This document shows, piece after piece, positions 16,880-47,047 of a stretch of 64,000 nucleotides of DNA (the stretch's first letter is position 1; every line of letters starts with the position of its first letter). The notes below the pieces were generated by a model. That model did no database searches. It had not been told where the DNA came from and saw nothing but the letters and a program-made list of their open reading frames with translations. Origin of the DNA: an uncultured Prevotellaceae bacterium (lineage in GTDB: Bacteria; Bacteroidota; Bacteroidia; Bacteroidales; Bacteroidaceae); the NCBI GenBank assembly GCA_947176895.1, contig CAMWSK010000001.1, positions 62,001 to 126,000 on the forward strand. Direction: 5' to 3'. A program made the translations under genes and the position numbers.

Positions 16880-19018
16880 TTATTTCCGATTGTTCTTCAA
16901 GCCGGTCTCCAACCACCGCACATAGCTGTCCACGTCTTCATCAAAACCATAGGAGTGGTTCAGGGGATTTCCCGACGGGTCCACCGGCACATAGAAGGGT
17001 TGGGCGTTGGCGCCGAACTTCACGCGCTGCAGATAGCTCCACTTGTCTCCCACGGTGCGCAACTTGCGGGGCCTGCCGTTCTCGGTCACCTCCATGGGGG
17101 CGGCCAGGTTGGCCTTCTCGTCCACATACAAGGAGATAAGCACATACTTCTCGGCTATCAGGCGGCTCACCCGGGCATCCGTCCACACGGCAGCCTCCAT
17201 CTTGCGGCAGTTGACACAGCCATAACCGGTGAAGTCGAGCAGCACGGGCATATCGTGTTCCCGGGCATAGGCCATGCCCTCTTCGTAATCATAGAAATGT
17301 TTGCCAGTCTCGCTCTCGCCAAGTTTGAAGTCCTGCGTGGACATGGGAGGCGCGAAAGCACTCACGGCCTTGCAGGGAGCGCCCCACAAGCCGGGAATCA
17401 TGTAGATAGCGAAGGCAAAGCTGATGAGAGCGACAAAGAAACGGGTCACTCCCGTGCGGGGATGCTGAACAATTTCGCCCATTTCATCGTATTCATCCTC
17501 GTCGTGGGGGAAGCGTATCCACCCGATGAGGTAGGCACCCAGCAGGGCGAAGAGCACAATCCACAGACTGAGGAACACCTCACGGTCCAGGATTCCCCAT
17601 CCGTAGGCCAAGTCGGCAACGGACAGGAACTTCAGGGCAAAAGCCAGTTCGATAAAGCCAAGGCACACCTTCACGCAGTTCATCCAGTTGCCGCTCTTGG
17701 GGGCTTTCTTCATCATCTGCGGGAACAGGGCAAAGAGGGTGAAGGGCAAGGCCAAGGCGATGGCAAAGCCCAGCATGCCCATGGCGGGCGCGGCCCATTG
17801 GCCACTGGTGCCCACCTCCACCAGCAGGAAGCCGATGATGGGGCCCGTGCAACTGAAACTCACCAGCGAGAGGGTGAAAGCCATCAGGAAGATGCTCAGC
17901 AGACCCGTGCTTTTGCCGGCCTTGCTGTCCACGGCATTGCTCCAGCGGCTGGGCAACGTCAGTTCGAAGCCTCCCAGGAAGCTGGCGCCGAAGAGCAGCA
18001 ACATCAGGAAGAAGATGATATTAAACACCGCATTCGTGGCCAAGGCATTCAGCGCATCCGCACCGAAAGCGGCCGTGACAACCAGGCCCAGGCCCACATA
18101 GATGACCACGATGCTCAGGCCATAGGTCACTGCATCGCGGATGCCTTTTCCACGGCTGTCCTTGTTTCTCTTGAGGAAGAAGCTCACCGTCATGGGGATA
18201 ATCGGCCACACGCAAGGGGTGACCAAAGCGGCCAGACCGGCCAGGAAGCCCAACAGGAAAATCATCAGCAAACTGCGGGATGCCACATTTTCCGGCATCG
18301 CTCCACCCTTATAATCGTTCAGTTTGTCGATTACGGGAGCCCACAAGTCGTTGGGCACGGTTGCCGTCTCGGCAACCGTGCTGTCTTTTGCCTGTGCGAG
18401 TACGACCAAAGAATCTGCTCTTGCCGACTCCTCCTCCGTTAATTCGTATGGGTCTTCCTCAATAATCACTTGTTCTTCCGCCGTAATCTTGGCAGGCAAG
18501 TCTTTCACTTCGGGTGCTTTCTTCTCGGTTACCGGCAGTTTGTCCTGCACCTTCGCCTCTTTCTTGGGTCCATCGCCCAAGAAAGAGAAGTTCACATCTG
18601 TGGGAGGCAGGCAATTGTTGTCGCTGCAAGTTCCATAGGTCAGGAAGCCCGCCACGGCATACTTCTCGCCCGTGATGCGGAATTTCTGCACGAAGGTGGC
18701 CTTGCCTTCCAAATAGCTCACCTCCATATTGAATATGGGATCCATGCCCTTGTGCACTTTCCCCCTCACCTTCAGCGGGCCCACAGGCTCTGCGCCCTCT
18801 TGCTTCTCCAGTTTCAGTTCGGCTTTCGTGGGACCGCCTTCGGCGATGTCCGTGCCATAGACATGCCATCCGGCATCGATGGTGGCGGCAAACGTTACTT
18901 CAAATTCGGTGTCAGACAATAACTTTTGCTCTACATTGAACTTCACAGGTTCAACTATCTGTGCATGCAGTCCGAAGCATGCCGACAGAGCTACAATAAT
19001 AAGCTTTAATCGATTCAT
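16880..19018 (-). CDS. dsbD: Protein-disulfide reductase DsbD family
   Basis: 712 residues from the ATG at 19018, chosen because a TACCTTTG box ends 5 nt upstream. A signal peptide (MNRLKLIIVALSACFGLHAQ) is followed by an N-terminal DsbD-alpha-like domain with a CSDNNC pair, an acidic linker and about eight membrane segments. The latter carry the conserved TPCVWPIIPMTVSFF and SCTGPIIG motifs. The C-terminal thioredoxin domain has the active site GYGCVNCRKME. It passes electrons from cytoplasmic thioredoxin to periplasmic thiols. It lies 70 nt after tatC and upstream of the M16 gene, next to an operon for a seven-cysteine exported peptide. Confidence 0.93.
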   Translation of the reverse strand: MNRLKLIIVALSACFGLHAQIVEPVKFNVEQKLLSDTEFEVTFAATIDAGWHVYGTDIAEGGPTKAELKLEKQEGAEPVGPLKVRGKVHKGMDPIFNMEVSYLEGKATFVQKFRITGEKYAVAGFLTYGTCSDNNCLPPTDVNFSFLGDGPKKEAKVQDKLPVTEKKAPEVKDLPAKITAEEQVIIEEDPYELTEEESARADSLVVLAQAKDSTVAETATVPNDLWAPVIDKLNDYKGGAMPENVASRSLLMIFLLGFLAGLAALVTPCVWPIIPMTVSFFLKRNKDSRGKGIRDAVTYGLSIVVIYVGLGLVVTAAFGADALNALATNAVFNIIFFLMLLLFGASFLGGFELTLPSRWSNAVDSKAGKSTGLLSIFLMAFTLSLVSFSCTGPIIGFLLVEVGTSGQWAAPAMGMLGFAIALALPFTLFALFPQMMKKAPKSGNWMNCVKVCLGFIELAFALKFLSVADLAYGWGILDREVFLSLWIVLFALLGAYLIGWIRFPHDEDEYDEMGEIVQHPRTGVTRFFVALISFAFAIYMIPGLWGAPCKAVSAFAPPMSTQDFKLGESETGKHFYDYEEGMAYAREHDMPVLLDFTGYGCVNCRKMEAAVWTDARVSRLIAEKYVLISLYVDEKANLAAPMEVTENGRPRKLRTVGDKWSYLQRVKFGANAQPFYVPVDPSGNPLNHSYGFDEDVDSYVRWLETGLKNNRK

Positions 19019-19023
19019 AGCGA

Positions 19024-19031
19024 CAAAGGTA
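19024..19031 (-). promoter_or_regulatory. -7 box in front of dsbD
   Basis: Minus-strand TACCTTTG ends 5 nt before the dsbD ATG. Transcripts from here would be almost leaderless. Confidence 0.55.
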
Positions 19032-19088
19032 CGGAAAAGTTCATATATACCGATTTCTTTGCCGCTTTTTTTAAGCCTTTTATGCTCT

Positions 19089-19889
19089 TCAAACTTTCTT
19101 TGCACCCCACTTCAACACCCAAATGCTAACCTCATACAACAGGTAGAGAGGGACGGAAACAAGAATAAGAGTCATTAAGTCCGGGGGTGTGATGATGGCA
19201 GCAACCAGCATGATGATCAGTACCGCATGCCTGCGGTAGGCGGAAAGCATAGAAGATGAGATTATCCCCATCTTACCCAGCACAAGAGCGATAACGGGAA
19301 GCTGAAACACGACTCCCATCAATAATGTCAACGTGGTGAATGTAGAAACATAGCTGTCCAAAGTGATGGTGGAATGAATACGCTCTGCCACACGATACGT
19401 GCCAAGAAAACGGAACGATATGGGAAACAGGATATAATAGCTCATCAACACGCCAACGATGAACAGGATGTATATCACGATTACGGTCTGCACGGAATAC
19501 CGCCTCTCCTTCTCGTAAAGTGCAGGAGACACGAACCGGAACAACTCATATAATATATAAGGAGACGCCCCTAACAACCCGAGATAGACCGCCGTTGTGA
19601 TGTGTGTCATAAACTGGCTTGACAAGTCTGTGGCAATCAGGTCTACATGAAACTTTTCAAAATGAAAGTTACTGAAGCCCAACATCCGGATGCAACGCTC
19701 TATCCATCGATAGGTGACAAAGTCCCATTCACCGGGAGCCAGAAGCAGTTGCCAGGTGACATCCTTGAAACAGAACACGATGACGGCAAGCACTCCTGCC
19801 ACACCGATAATTCGGAAAAGCATTCGGCGGAGCACTTGCATGTGCCCGCCGAACGTCAACAAATCTTCCTTGTTATTGCTTTTCTTCAT
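19089..19889 (-). CDS. tatC: Sec-independent translocase subunit TatC
   Basis: 266 residues from the ATG at 19889 ([24 protein letters not shown]); a longer frame reaches into tatA and is unlikely. Six membrane segments are visible. Family landmarks are the N-terminal E/H-rich segment before helix 1, [14 protein letters not shown] after helix 2, and the ITPPDL loop near the C terminus. TatC recognises the twin-arginine signal and forms the receptor complex. It overlaps tatA by 17 nt and closes an operon whose first gene encodes a twin-arginine peptide. No tatB is present, so a minimal TatAC pathway is expected. Confidence 0.95.
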
Positions 19890-20115
19890 CCGTATTCTTT
19901 TCCTCGTCCCCGGCCGGTTTTTCTTCCTCCGGAATGTTGCCTTCAGTGGCGTTCTCCACATCGTTCACACCTTTCTTAAATTCCTTCACGCCTTGTCCTA
20001 GGCCGCGCATCATCTCGGGCAACTTCTTTCCGCCAAAAAGCAACAAGGCTATTCCGCCGATAAGAAGCAACTCTGTTGTTCCGATGAACAACAACTGGCA
20101 GGTAAGCATAACCAT
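19873..20115 (-). CDS. tatA: Sec-independent translocase subunit TatA
   Basis: 80 residues. One N-terminal membrane helix ([23 protein letters not shown]) contains the family FGGKKLPE hinge. The amphipathic helix [16 protein letters not shown] and an acidic tail follow. It oligomerises to form the Tat passage for folded proteins. It starts 11 nt after the CXXX accessory gene and overlaps tatC, so translation is probably coupled. Confidence 0.94.
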
Positions 20116-20126
20116 ATCCGATGTTT

Positions 20127-20405
20127 TTAATTATTCGTGACAAGCATAATCTCACATGTGTCGAAATTGATTTCCCAATTTCCGTCCGCAGAAGATTCCC
20201 ATTGGTACTTCTCCGCCATCCGGTCCCACCAGTTCTGGAACTTTGTGCCGGTTTCGCCCAGGTCTTTCACCAGTTTCTCATACAATTCTCCATTGTCAGC
20301 CGTCAGAATCTTGGCCAACTCGTTCAGTCCGTTGCGACGCTCAAACAATGTTTGAATCTCATTCTTCTCCTCAGCGGTCACTTGACCTACTAACTTCTTT
20401 ACCAT
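20127..20405 (-). CDS. CXXX-repeat peptide modification system accessory protein
   Basis: 92 residues, no signal or membrane segment. It is mostly helical and charged at the N terminus ([30 protein letters not shown]), then [15 protein letters not shown] and [14 protein letters not shown]. Size, sequence character and position match the family named CXXX repeat peptide modification system protein (TIGR04116, from memory). A role as a peptide-binding or scaffold subunit for the radical-SAM enzymes is plausible but not shown. Its start overlaps the end of the SPASM-partner gene by 7 nt, and tatA follows after 11 nt. Confidence 0.7.
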
Positions 20406-21382
20406 TCTTCTTTTACATCAAAAGGGTCCAAATAATCTATTTCCTTTATCTCCTCTCTCTCGGGCAGGAATGTGCCATGCCGGCGGATGCGGTTGAGCAG
20501 ATTGCGGCTTGCATTGCGCTCCAGGTGGGCAACCACACATTGCTCGTGGCTTGGCGTGTTCACCTCGTAGGTGGTCTTGCGGTTCAACCACACACAGCGT
20601 TTGCATTGATAGGCATCGCAATGGCGGCAAATCGGAGCATGGTCGAGTCTGTAGAGTTGCGGATTCTTGATGTCAGGTCCGTTCTCCAAGTCGCCGATGC
20701 TATATTTTGCCTTGCCCAAACCAAAGTCCTCCTCATCACCGGCAAGGTAGAATGCGGGACATACGTAGAAGCATCCGTCAGGCGCCAAAGTGATATTCTC
20801 CCAACCGGCATTGCAGTTGTTCATCTTGTCGAGCATCATGCGGTCGGTCAGAATGTTCATCTGGGGATATTTGCCCTCCATATAAAGTTTCTCTACCTCT
20901 TCCGACAACATCGCCAAGGCCTCCTTGTACGTTCCGAAGTCCTCTTCCGTGAAGGTCTCCACGTCTGTGATGACAACATTCAAGCGGGCAGTCTTTGAAA
21001 TCAAGCTTTTCAAGAGTTGCCGTTTCCCAAACAAATCGGCCTTGTTGGTTCTAATCACGTATGCGGTTTCGTCTGAAAGATTGCAAGAGTCAATATCCGT
21101 CCAACCATTGAAAACCACAACATCCGCATTCTCTTTGATCACGGCGTCTTCGCACGAAGAGGAAACGATGTCGCTATGATCGATGCTGTCAATGACATCT
21201 TTGTACTCCTGTGGCAACTCATAGTCAGGGTAGACGAACTGAATCATCAGGTTCTCCTTCATGGCATAAAGGATGCCCTGCTTCAGAGTGTCCAAAGGCA
21301 TCAGCCGTTTTGTCTCACGATTGCTGTAATGGCAATAGGATGTGCTTGCATCATCCAATAAGATAATAAGATATTGCACCAT
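20399..21382 (-). CDS. CXXX-repeat peptide maturase (SPASM-like partner without radical-SAM motif)
   Basis: 327 residues. The C-terminal half has a cysteine pattern like a SPASM/twitch iron-sulfur domain: CNAGWENITLAPDGCFYVCPAFY, then CRHCDAYQCKRCVWLN and a final C in HEQCVV. The N-terminal half reads like a degenerate barrel but has no CxxxCxxC for the radical-SAM cluster. This matches the protein family called CXXX repeat peptide maturase (TIGR04119, from memory) and suggests a catalytically distinct or non-catalytic partner of the real radical-SAM enzyme upstream. It starts 3 nt after that gene's stop. Confidence 0.75.
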   Translation of the reverse strand: MVQYLIILLDDASTSYCHYSNRETKRLMPLDTLKQGILYAMKENLMIQFVYPDYELPQEYKDVIDSIDHSDIVSSSCEDAVIKENADVVVFNGWTDIDSCNLSDETAYVIRTNKADLFGKRQLLKSLISKTARLNVVITDVETFTEEDFGTYKEALAMLSEEVEKLYMEGKYPQMNILTDRMMLDKMNNCNAGWENITLAPDGCFYVCPAFYLAGDEEDFGLGKAKYSIGDLENGPDIKNPQLYRLDHAPICRHCDAYQCKRCVWLNRKTTYEVNTPSHEQCVVAHLERNASRNLLNRIRRHGTFLPEREEIKEIDYLDPFDVKEEW

Positions 21383-21385
21383 GGC

Positions 21386-22603
21386 CTAACAGATTGTATT
21401 GTTTACGGTTGGCTTGCTCTTCTCAAACTCCTCACGCCGCCCTTCCAATTCCAACTTGCGGAACAACTTATTCCAATAATAATTGTTGGCACGGACGCGT
21501 GCCTTGTGCATCTTGCAGATGGTGGTACTTCTTTGATAAATAGTAGGCGTATCCGCAGCATCATAGTTTTCTCCTTGACACCAAGCGCATCCACTGGCCA
21601 CTTCGCACTTCATACATTCTTCGGAACTTTGCAGACTTCTCTTCAACGTTAGATATGGACGAAGAAGGTTCTTGTTTATGCCAGTTCCAGAATAAACATT
21701 ACCTATAATAATCGGTTTGCGAGAACGCAAAGAATACGCAGCAAAGCGTGTACATGGATAGAAATTTCCGGCGGCATCTACAGAAAGCATCATTCCAGCT
21801 CCACACCAATTTCCGTCGTCAGCCAGCGGATGACCTATATTTTCATCAAAGAACGAACATGTATGATCAATATAATAGCGGTTATCAATAATATAATCTG
21901 CCAACTGTATCAGTTGTTCCTCAAGCAATTTGTCGTCACCTTCCTCCCAAACATCTTCAAACACGCAATTTATCAACACATTTTGGATACCCAAGTTGAA
22001 CAGGTGTGCTACACTTTCTTTGATATATGGAATGTCGTCATGACTAATTGTAACTTTCGTATGAATGCCCTCAAACTGAGACAACCACAGGGGGATATTC
22101 TTTACAACATCACGATACGAGCCTCTTCCGCTTTCCTTATAGATTCTATTGATGTCGTGCTTCCTCTCGGTTCCGTCTATCGTGATGCAAATCTGCAAAT
22201 GCGTGATGTTCTTTGAGATGAACCTTTGTACCTTCTCTGAATGATAATTCAATCCATTTGTGGTTACCATGAACACGTAATCATTAAACCACTTATGGTT
22301 TCTGCGGTACATCTCAATCTTCAAATAATCGCAAATCTTGTCTATCAGGTCAATTTCCAAGAAAGGCTCTCCTCCGATGAAATCAAACTGAACACATTCA
22401 TCAGAGAAGTTTTCTGTATCTGAAAGAATATAGTCTATCGTTCTTTTTGCGACATCCCAACTCATTCTTTCCTTAGAGTTCTTTCCCACCAAATAACAAT
22501 ATTTACAAGCTAATTGGCAATCTTTTGTTACAATAAAAGTAATACATTTACGCATGTCATCATTATAGGCACTGCGTTCTTTTGCATTTTTCTTTTTTCC
22601 CAT
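21386..22603 (-). CDS. Radical-SAM/SPASM peptide maturase, CXXX-repeat target family
   Basis: 405 residues. The radical-SAM cluster motif is C29-x3-C33-x2-C36 (TKDCQLACKYCYL), followed by FDFIGGEPFLE (GGEP, SAM binding) and a C-terminal SPASM domain: WCGAGMMLSVDAAGNFYPC...CMKCEVASGCAWCQGE...C. Such enzymes bind three 4Fe-4S clusters and make radical crosslinks (thioether or C-C) on ribosomal peptides. The precursor lies directly upstream, and the match is to the CXXX-repeat maturase family (TIGR04115, from memory). The gene is clearly AT-richer than tatC or dsbD, which hints at transfer. A terminator-like stem sits between it and the precursor, so it is probably expressed below the precursor. 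Confidence 0.88.
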   Translation of the reverse strand: MGKKKNAKERSAYNDDMRKCITFIVTKDCQLACKYCYLVGKNSKERMSWDVAKRTIDYILSDTENFSDECVQFDFIGGEPFLEIDLIDKICDYLKIEMYRRNHKWFNDYVFMVTTNGLNYHSEKVQRFISKNITHLQICITIDGTERKHDINRIYKESGRGSYRDVVKNIPLWLSQFEGIHTKVTISHDDIPYIKESVAHLFNLGIQNVLINCVFEDVWEEGDDKLLEEQLIQLADYIIDNRYYIDHTCSFFDENIGHPLADDGNWCGAGMMLSVDAAGNFYPCTRFAAYSLRSRKPIIIGNVYSGTGINKNLLRPYLTLKRSLQSSEECMKCEVASGCAWCQGENYDAADTPTIYQRSTTICKMHKARVRANNYYWNKLFRKLELEGRREEFEKSKPTVNNTIC

Positions 22604-22710: not shown

Positions 22711-22989
22711 TTACAAACGTCCGCTGGTACTGGAACGAACACCAAGGCATCCGGTCTTACAACCACCAGAACATTTAAGACGGCAGGTCGCGTCACATTT
22801 ACCTTTACAAGAACCATTACAGCCAGAACTACTACCTCCTCCGGAAGGTTCCGGTTCATCCGTATCACACGATGACAGCACCATCGGACCAAAGGCAATA
22901 GCACCTAAGATGGGCAACGCACCTTTGGCTGCTTTTTTGAAGAACTCACGTCTTGACTGCAGTTCTTCGTTGTGATTCTTTTTCTCCAT
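22711..22989 (-). CDS. CXXX-repeat RiPP precursor with Tat signal and lipobox
   Basis: 92 residues from the ATG at 22989; the in-frame extension upstream runs through the structured leader and is rejected. The twin-arginine motif SRREFFKK (residues 12-19) is followed by a hydrophobic core and LSSC at 38-41, a credible lipobox. A short acidic and Gly/Ser linker leads to the core, with cysteines at 57, 61, 65, 69, 73, 77 and 81, exactly every fourth residue. The spaced residues are small or basic (NGS, KGK, DAT, RLK, SGG, KTG). This matches the Cys-rich CXXX-repeat radical-SAM target peptides. The gene order precursor, two maturases, accessory, tatA, tatC supports modification in the cytoplasm and then Tat export and lipidation. 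Chemistry and activity are unknown. Confidence 0.85.
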   Translation of the reverse strand: MEKKNHNEELQSRREFFKKAAKGALPILGAIAFGPMVLSSCDTDEPEPSGGGSSSGCNGSCKGKCDATCRLKCSGGCKTGCLGVRSSTSGRL

Positions 22990-23056
22990 ATTGTTTGAAG
23001 ATTTAGAATGCCTGTCGACCTCCCAGTTTCGGCGTAGATAAAATGTTTCGCTGACT

Positions 23057-23447
23057 ATACAAAAAAAGCGTGGAGATCCGTACCTGTCACTCGTCCCACA
23101 CTCTGAGGCTTCTCGCATTGCCCATCTTAGTTGAACGAGCAACGCGAAACCCACGCCGATGAATTTATATAACTATCCCTATACGCCATACACCGCCCCC
23201 TCTGATACCCAAGGTGGCAGAAACAGCACAATAGAGATGCTTTATAAAAACACCCCATGAGCATCTACCGTTGCCTTGTCCAAGACTAAGATGAAATTTT
23301 GCGAGAATTTCAGAGTGTCAAGAACAAAGCGCATTGTAAACGCTTTCCTATATATAGCAGTCCTTTTTCTCCCACCACATCCGCTTCGAACAAGTTCTTA
23401 GCTTCGGCGTGGATGCCCCACCCTAAAGGGGAGACTTCAAGAACCAT
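23057..23447 (-). ncRNA. Structured leader element, copy A, upstream of the CXXX operon
   Basis: About 390 nt on the minus strand, similar in two long blocks to 46561-47013. From 5' to 3' it has a TATCTTTG box (23451-23458); hairpin AAAGCG/CGCTTT (23326-23346); a 7-bp hairpin with loop CTCGCAA (23292-23312); and a 3' domain closed by GCGTGG/CCACGC (23068-23073/23151-23156) and followed by seven U (23061-23067). Inside that domain GCGTTGC can pair with GCAATGC (23139-23145/23115-23121), and CTCGTTC with GGACGAG, in interleaved order, a possible pseudoknot. It ends 72 nt before the precursor ATG. It fills most of the 616-bp gene-less stretch 22990-23605. I cannot name the family. Confidence 0.65.
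23310..23447 (-). CDS. Possible 45-residue leader ORF in element copy A
   Basis: ATG at 23447 opens a 45-codon frame beginning MVLEVSPLGWGIH and ending at TGA inside the second hairpin. The -7 box ends only 3 nt before this ATG, so the transcript may start too late for it. In copy B the same region is in another frame, which speaks against conserved coding. Confidence 0.2.
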   Translation of the reverse strand: MVLEVSPLGWGIHAEAKNLFEADVVGEKGLLYIGKRLQCALFLTL

Positions 23448-23450
23448 GTG

Positions 23451-23458
23451 CAAAGATA
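23451..23458 (-). promoter_or_regulatory. -7 box of leader element copy A / CXXX operon
   Basis: Minus-strand TATCTTTG. A clear -33 TTTG is not visible here, but the other copy has a full promoter at the same relative place. Confidence 0.6.
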
Positions 23459-46060: not shown

Positions 46061-46483
46061 TTATCTTTTGTATAACACCGCGACAACAGAATTGTTTGAG
46101 GTATTAATCAAAGTCATCTTGAAACCGCTCTCGATAGTACCCTCAAGAGAGGCATTGCCTGATTCTTTCGGCGAAAGCAAAACAAGATTCTTGGCTCTTC
46201 TGAAAGAGTAGGAGAACGTGTTGGTTAGTGTCTGCGTACCTTCATTATAAGAGATTGACAAGATTGCCGTGGATGACGAGAACGTCAGCACTGTGGTTGA
46301 ACTTGACCCATCCGAGTAGGAAGACTCTTCAACCCACCTGGTTCCGATAACCTCATTCTCATCCACTTCAGAGACGGGAGGTATCACAGGGTCGTCATCA
46401 TCGTCACTGCAAGACGTTAAACCGAAGGTGCACAATGCCATGAAGAGGCAAGGCAACAACTTAAGGTACTTTTTTAAAAGCAT
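46061..46483 (-). CDS. Small lipoprotein of unknown function
   Basis: 140 residues from the ATG at 46483. The signal MLLKKYLKLLPCLFMALCTFGLTSC ends in a lipobox with the Cys at 25, followed by an Asp-run (SDDDDDP) that often marks surface-exposed Bacteroidales lipoproteins. The rest is a beta-rich lipocalin-like domain (IGTRWVEESSYSDGSSSTTVLTFSSS...SLEGTIESGFKMTLI). I do not recognise the family. It lies between leader element copy B and the M6 protease and is probably co-transcribed with the protease. Confidence 0.75.
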   Translation of the reverse strand: MLLKKYLKLLPCLFMALCTFGLTSCSDDDDDPVIPPVSEVDENEVIGTRWVEESSYSDGSSSTTVLTFSSSTAILSISYNEGTQTLTNTFSYSFRRAKNLVLLSPKESGNASLEGTIESGFKMTLINTSNNSVVAVLYKR

Positions 46484-46560
46484 AATGTTTGTTTTTTGCG
46501 GCCTTACAGACTCCCCCACTTGGCCAAGTTAAGATGATGAATGTTGACGTTCTTTCTGAT

Positions 46561-47013
46561 ATACAAAAAAAGCGTGGAAGTCTGTACCAGTCACTCGTTC
46601 CACAACTTGAGGCTCTCGCATTGCCCGATACAGTTGAACGAGCAACGCAGAAACCCACGCCGATGATTTATATATGACACACCCTGCCATTCCCATACAT
46701 AAGCACCCACCAATGTGGTATGCACATATATGGCCGACAAACAGGGAGTATTCATAAAAAACATCCCATGAGCATCTACCGTTGCCTTGTCCTGACTGTA
46801 TCTTGGAAATTTGCGAGATTTCAAGTTGTCAAGAAACAAAGCGCTTGTAAACGCTTTTCCCATATATAGTGAATCCAATCCCCCACATCCCTGCCGATGG
46901 AAATACTCTTTGAGAGTTGCCATCACGCATGCTTCGGCGCAGGTGTCTTCATCATGTGTTGTGCCCGGACGCTTCCGCAACGATAGCACAGAGAGGAAGA
47001 ACTTGGAATTCAT
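46561..47013 (-). ncRNA. Structured leader element, copy B, upstream of lipoprotein/M6 protease
   Basis: About 450 nt, similar to 23057-23447. It has the same hairpin AAAGCG/CGCTTT (46838-46857), the hairpin with loop CTCGCAA (46806-46822), and the 3' domain closed by GCGTGG/CCACGC (46572-46577/46655-46660), with the same 77-nt interior as copy A and seven U after it (46565-46571). Within the domain CTCGTTC pairs perfectly with GAACGAG; in copy A the second arm is GGACGAG, keeping a wobble pair. The element fills most of the 741-bp stretch between 46484 and the gene at 47225. Confidence 0.65.
46591..47013 (-). CDS. Doubtful 140-residue ORF across leader element copy B
   Basis: ATG 47013 opens a frame beginning MNSKFFLSVLSLRKRPG that continues through the element and ends at a TGA inside the pseudoknot region. 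It is a likely automatic gene call. The -7 box ends 2 nt before this ATG, and the homologous stretch in copy A is frame-shifted and stops after 45 codons, so I favour RNA over protein. Confidence 0.25.
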   Translation of the reverse strand: MNSKFFLSVLSLRKRPGTTHDEDTCAEACVMATLKEYFHRQGCGGLDSLYMGKAFTSALFLDNLKSRKFPRYSQDKATVDAHGMFFMNTPCLSAIYVHTTLVGAYVWEWQGVSYINHRRGFLRCSFNCIGQCESLKLWNE

Positions 47014-47015
47014 TG

Positions 47016-47047
47016 CAAAGATATAAAAAAACGTAAATGGTTGCAAA
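47016..47047 (-). promoter_or_regulatory. Full-consensus promoter of leader element copy B
   Basis: Minus-strand TTTG (47044-47047), 20-nt spacer, TATCTTTG (47016-47023). Confidence 0.78.

Follow-up and report, generated by a model that had tools for sequence, protein, structure and literature searches.

To our knowledge, few classes of cis-regulatory RNA are known in Bacteroidota. The closest described relatives of the leader RNA analysed in this work are the terminator-type riboswitches and attenuators which, like this leader, place a structured RNA with a stem and a U-run between promoter and gene, use alternative pairings (putative ones in this leader) and occur in several copies per genome. 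The leader differs from the known classes of this kind in its lack of an Rfam match, in the three docking helices between its two hairpins, in a covarying pairing that spans its U-run and in targets without a shared metabolic pathway. The UpxY, LoaP and RfaH leaders resemble it in that a terminator-like element precedes accessory (surface or natural-product) operons, and a few of its copies do sit ahead of upxY; however, most copies do not lie near upxY, and most upxY genes lack the leader. According to one report, UpxY proteins keep transcription from terminating prematurely in the leaders that precede upxY (PMC7819879). The FopS and GibS RNAs are, like our leader, multicopy paralogous RNAs of Bacteroidaceae, and FopS, a group of trans-acting sRNAs of Bacteroides of ~65-70 nt, has a canonical sigma-ABfr promoter (PMC11697453). 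Identity with them was rejected, since the leader is ~315-450 nt long and lies in cis before a gene.

The sequence-only reading of this DNA had named an Rfam search among its checks, and no known family matched: at the gathering threshold Rfam 15 found a tRNA only in the whole window (the complete 64,000-nt stretch analysed here), and at E up to 10 it gave four chance-level matches, none of them for the leader. In the searchable literature we found no description of the leader. A possible unnamed earlier sighting is HMP2_1881 (Fremin and Bhatt 2021), a 108-bp candidate RNA, mostly from Bacteroidetes, located near radical SAM domains and expressed in faecal samples, for which the parts of the main text that we draw on describe no family or function (PMC8040213). 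Going by that description only, it resembles the 3' domain of the leader in size and context, and it may be part of this leader. If so, transcription of the family would already be supported and ours would not be the first sighting, but both architecture and switch would be new all the same.

The two copies in the window and the genes behind them

Two copies were found in the window, both on the minus strand, as are all the features located below, and each has the promoter box that the sequence-only reading had noticed, the predicted -7 box TATCTTTG of the Bacteroidota TAnnTTTG type (23451-23458 for copy 1, 47016-47023 for copy 2). From predicted start to the end of the U-run, the leader RNAs extend over 23061-23450 and 46565-47015; the start of copy 1 was placed ~7 nt past the -7 box, and starts, ends and gene starts are sequence-based predictions throughout. 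The 3' domain, read earlier as a closing stem followed by seven U, holds up in both copies. It is 97 nt long in each, with the stem GCGTGG...CCACGC followed by T7 (23061-23067; 46565-46571). This closing stem, P5, has 7 bp, and the ~77 nt that it encloses exceed what is found in textbook terminators; a terminator scan restricted to loops of 3-8 does not list it. When the covariance model of the 3' domain was run across the window, it found these two loci only, at 103-104 bits (E ~1e-23; copy 2, with P5, P6, P7 and U7, at 46565-46668 with 103.8 bits), and its sole extra match was an antisense shadow of copy 2.

Behind copy 1 lies a CXXX-repeat RiPP precursor gene (22711-22989, ATG at 22987-22989; its TIGR04117 match is below cut-off), which adjoins a radical SAM maturase (TIGR04115). 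A CXXX maturase (TIGR04119), TatC and a DsbD-like protein are further products of the RiPP operon (16880-22603, minus strand). The N-terminus of the precursor is twin-arginine-like (SRREFFKKAAKG), which suggests Tat export of a cysteine-rich modified peptide. Copy 2 is followed by a gene for a 140-aa lipoprotein (46061-46483).

Distribution and fold of the leader

A BLAST search with copy 1 yielded further copies in the source genome and in 32 of 61 genomes of the genus, and 29 of the copies found in this way were used to make model R1. The source genome carries six copies, five of them strong; the weak one (34.5 bits) retains the kissing loop CCTCGGA/TCCGAGG. Within the family, R1 matched 215/301 genomes in 24 of 30 genera, with up to 13 matches per genome; within the order it matched 55 of 247 genomes, some of these matches being weak and possibly due to chance; and a phylum-wide draw gave the source genome, one weak match and nothing else. 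The leader RNA is essentially restricted to Bacteroidales. Carriers among the matches listed are Prevotella, Segatella copri, Phocaeicola, Bacteroides, Parabacteroides and Muribaculaceae, with species counts to be read as at least the number named; the genomes surveyed are mostly metagenome assemblies, and family and genus were partly inferred from named matches. Two Phocaeicola plasmids also carry copies. One of them, on a Phocaeicola dorei plasmid (L254; NZ_CP072250.1, 54084-54187), precedes a hypothetical protein gene and would make a handy laboratory system. Cultured carriers include Phocaeicola dorei CL06T03C03, with a copy on its plasmid, and Segatella copri. Three IMG/VR contigs classed as viral (L185, L186, L187) carry the leader, and may be phage or misclassified bacterial contigs. 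Copies from Bacteroides/Phocaeicola-type genomes (L255-L263) form a divergent subfamily that scores ~41-51 bits with R1 and merits a separate model; the kissing loop CTTCGCA is mostly kept in it, and E:E' (see below) can be followed by eye, e.g. GTACCT/AGGTAC and GTATCTGA/TCAGATAC.

Covariation was analysed in these homologues, another of the checks that had been proposed. In the 3' domain, 97.9% of cells in the 98 R1-aligned matches are paired and 16 of 21 pairs are compensatory, as against 41-50% paired in slid controls; ~10 of these 98 are low-scoring matches that shadow other rows in antisense, which makes the counts slightly impure. The seven pairs of the P5 stem are kept at 99%, and a U-rich tail follows the stem in nearly all of 188 copies. 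The strand assigned to the element is supported by G-U variants, which are common when it is read on that strand. The pairing CTCGTTC/GRACGAG, already proposed from the letters, proved to be helix P6 (GTTGCTCGTTC/GGACGAGTGAC, hairpin 23086-23143 in copy 1), with 96-97% paired and compensatory change in 10 of 11 pairs across the 98 aligned matches. P6 encloses E', the hairpin P7 (23107-23122), which bears the kissing loop, and F'.

The partners of these three segments lie in the 5' half of the RNA. There, covariation supports P1 (5' strand 23336-23346, partner GTAGATGC at 23261-23268) and P2 (5' strand 23317-23332), with F, P3 and E inside the loop of P2. The loop of P3 (TTCTCGCA, 23300-23307) kisses the loop of P7 (TGCGAGAA, 23110-23117) in copy 1, as does the loop TCTCGCA (46812-46818) with its P7 loop (46614-46620) in copy 2; this is the pairing of CTCGCAA with TGCGAG suggested earlier, and 7-8 nt are complementary in nearly all of 185 copies, in more than 12 sequence variants. 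Just 3' of P3, segment E (CATCTTAGTC, 23284-23293; GATACAGTC, 46794-46802) pairs with E', just 5' of P7 (AACTAAGATG, 23123-23132; 46627-46635), and just 5' of P3, segment F (ACACTCTGA, 23310-23318; ACAACTTGA, 46821-46829) pairs with F', just 3' of P7 (TCAGAGTGT, 23098-23106; 46602-46610). When the duplex energies of own and swapped partners were compared, we obtained z values of -21.6 for P3xP7, -39.4 for E:E' and -42.1 for F:F' (control 0.9), with 0 of 2000 permutations reaching the observed value in each case. Having a P3xP7 match (139 of 168 non-redundant copies) was part of how the tested elements were selected, which makes the P3xP7 value the least independent of the three. E:E' shows all four Watson-Crick pairs at eight adjacent positions almost throughout, with a register set per sequence that makes the percentages optimistic.

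For the full core, nine helices emerged from a MAFFT alignment of 40 copies, with compensatory changes in 42 of 61 pairs; the covariation score was 0.366, compared with 0.087-0.134 when the strands were slid; F:F', E:E' and P3xP7 alone scored 0.518, against 0.091-0.204 in controls. Comparison across the copies thus shows hairpins P2 and P6 docked loop-to-loop through three long-range helices, a fold that amounts in effect to a junction closed by a kissing loop. Two of the three pairings of the sequence-only reading, P6 and the loop-loop contact, are part of this topology; the third, GCGTTGC/GCAATGC, found no support across the family, as GTTGC has its partner in the GCAAC-type strand of P6 instead and changes on the GCAATGC side are uncompensated in a GCAATCC subtype (L014, L020, L033). 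F:F', E:E', the second hairpin and the pairing across the U-run described below were absent from that reading.

Pairing across the U-run and the proposed switch

The next gene downstream is co-directional in 112 of the 115 copies with enough flank, and in 181/187 of a larger set. The distance from leader to gene has a median of 70-72 nt (quartiles 53, 70 and 81 nt in the 187-copy set). A TAnnTTTG box lies inside this gap in only 2 of 112 copies; in most copies the box is found 190-300 nt upstream of the P6 motif and 3' domain. The gap can also hold a hairpin with a G-rich loop, D, mostly 9-28 nt ahead of the start codon; under a strict rule it is present in 29% of gaps, compared with 1.6% of shuffles and 5% of control genes. 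The partner of D is segment C, which consists of the 3' arm of P5 and a few preceding nucleotides, and the two change together (GACTCCC/GGGAGTC, GATTCCC/GGGAATC, GGCTCC/GGAGCC, GTCTCCA/TGGAGAC). In copy 1, C (GGATCTCCACGC, 23068-23079) directly precedes U7 (23061-23067), and the hairpin with loop D (GGGAGGTC, 23017-23024) occupies 23010-23033, ~20 nt ahead of the start codon; in copy 2 the hairpin lies at 46500-46525, and the partner of its loop (GGGGAGTCTG, 46507-46516) is CAGACTTCC within C. Loop D is clear in a subset of copies only. The permutation test for C:D gave z -11.3, against 0.5 and -0.6 for neighbouring control segments. Matched to the whole leader, D gave a weak signal (own 5.75, swapped 5.41 nt) until the comparison was limited to C, and no pairing signal was seen between the gap and the B arm or between the gap and the segment upstream of C. 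Since C:D spans the U-run, it can form only in read-through RNA, which implies that selection acts on the read-through mRNA. Among the comparative data, this covariation across the U-run is the strongest argument for a leader acting in cis.

On the 5' side a second candidate partner was identified. Strand A (CCACGCCGA, 23404-23412 in copy 1) could form 9 bp with B (TCGGCGTGGG, 23150-23159), which forms the 5' side of the terminator-like P5 stem, and is a candidate antiterminator strand. A:B with at least 7 Watson-Crick pairs occurs in 39% of copies vs 3% of shuffles, but own against swapped partners gave a weak z of -3.3 across the family; the pairing can be made out in fewer than half of the copies, and the antiterminator may be different from A:B, or absent. 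The computed energies are -18.2 (copy 1) and -12.0 (copy 2) kcal/mol for A:B, -10.8 kcal/mol in both copies for B:C, and -12.0 (copy 1) and -17.1 (copy 2) kcal/mol for C:D. Since neither A:B nor C:D is less stable than B:C in either window copy, B:C on the one hand and A:B plus C:D on the other are plausible alternatives, and the sequence in which the parts are transcribed (A, B, C, U-run, D) would be compatible with A:B antiterminating first and C being captured afterwards.

We consider it likely that each copy is a cis-acting attenuator leader of the terminator type. The promoter, the start, termination and read-through at the leader are here inferred from sequence. The comparison shows the docked 3' domain closed by B:C, with the U-run directly after it and ~70 nt before the co-directional gene; we propose that B:C and the U-run act as an intrinsic terminator, so that the default product would be a short terminated RNA. 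In the alternative state, strand A near the 5' end would hold B and the RNA polymerase would read through; loop D of the hairpin transcribed next would then capture C, so that the terminator stem would stay open in the mRNA, and the captured C:D would place structure ~20 nt before the start codon. A ligand or an RNA-binding protein that acts on all copies within a genome may set the balance between the two states. The leader would probably decide whether the gene downstream is switched on. The earlier description of the element as a structured cis-regulatory RNA with a terminator-like stem just ahead of a gene fits the comparative data well.

The position of the D hairpin, mostly close ahead of the start codon, and its pairing with the leader would also suit a purely translational switch, in which B:C would be no real terminator and ribosome binding would be affected through hairpin D. 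Translation alone leaves unexplained the GC-rich stem and the U-run kept in nearly all copies, and we regard such a switch as rather unlikely.

The sequence-only reading had left the choice between a cis leader and a multicopy small RNA. A trans-acting RNA of ~315-450 nt with its own promoter and terminator, for which the gene behind would be incidental, could be suspected from the promoter and terminator-like end predicted in nearly every copy and from the several paralogues per genome. Its probability appears low to us: the gene is co-directional in 181 of 187 cases, at a narrow distance and without a promoter of its own, loop D past the U-run covaries with C ahead of it, and the same gene families recur downstream across genera. 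It is the cis side of that choice, with the gene ~70 nt away and the covariation spanning the U-run, that is favoured over a free small RNA; the terminated product may have a dual role.

Target genes and biological meaning

Inspection of the genes behind other copies, which had also been recommended, showed RiPP, BspA-type, UpxY and LytTR proteins to recur. In a family-wide protein search for CXXX RiPP precursor loci, 24 of 30 had the leader within 1.5-kb flanks, and in most of these it lies directly ahead of the precursor gene. Among 148 downstream proteins analysed with Pfam and NCBIfam there were 12 BspA-type LRR proteins, 5 UpxY, 5 CXXX precursors, 4 LytTR, 4 DUF4595 and 3 Big_2 proteins, while AbiH, a protein kinase and a DNA methylase were each seen once; lipoproteins are further targets. 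By a crude signal-peptide rule, 54% of downstream proteins are positive vs 35% of the others on the same contigs. A 73-aa protein (MPxFxITxK...NPVxTNGGQ...VADAF) recurs behind the leader in several genomes (L060, L104, L127, L152) and is likely Pfam DUF6140. No pathway common to the downstream genes was found among the 148 proteins with Pfam and NCBIfam, an unusual trait for a metabolite riboswitch.

The 5 UpxY proteins among these 148, and the antitermination role reported for UpxY in leaders (PMC7819879), would speak for a processive antitermination leader as in Bacteroides capsule operons, that is, a target site of this specialised NusG paralogue. Of the more than 30 upxY genes above cut-off in a total of 16 genomes, the leader precedes two only (one each in G302 and G343); one genome (G274) has several upxY genes, none of them preceded by the leader, three others (G065, G068, G087) have upxY above cut-off without a credible leader, and most targets of the leader are not capsule loci. 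UpxY is not the common factor in the 16 genomes, so a definition of the family as UpxY leaders was rejected, and we judge a UpxY target site improbable. The two copies before upxY (L236, L238) have a longer gap of ~240 nt, and a terminator leader ahead of an antiterminator gene is an unusual arrangement. As for a mobile repeat or transposon end (a MITE or insertion-sequence guide RNA) scattered before genes, the many copies, some on plasmids and viral-classed contigs, might recall one, but nine helices with compensatory change, a conserved distance and orientation to the gene, recurring targets and the lack of any transposase or recombinase that recurs in the downstream families, where the sequence-only reading would have looked for a known repeat with transposase, make it extremely improbable.

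The attenuator leader may, we suggest tentatively and with somewhat less than even confidence, represent a new class among the large regulatory RNAs of Bacteroidales. Its sensor would be a pair of hairpins that three parallel long-range helices dock together, and its terminator would be controlled from both sides, with A before it and D after it competing for its arms. One signal would then govern, across the order, a regulon made up of surface, RiPP and regulatory genes along with defence-like ones. Exact compensatory mutants can be predicted from the covariation, which makes the model directly testable. Bacteroidota dominate the human gut, and in the family sampled here the leader is common (~70% of genomes), multicopy and elaborately structured. 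It fronts genes of interaction with host or competitors, namely RiPP peptides, BspA-type surface proteins, lipoproteins and UpxY. A signal shared by the copies would co-regulate surface, RiPP and regulatory genes and, once found, would expose a layer of control that such genes have in common.
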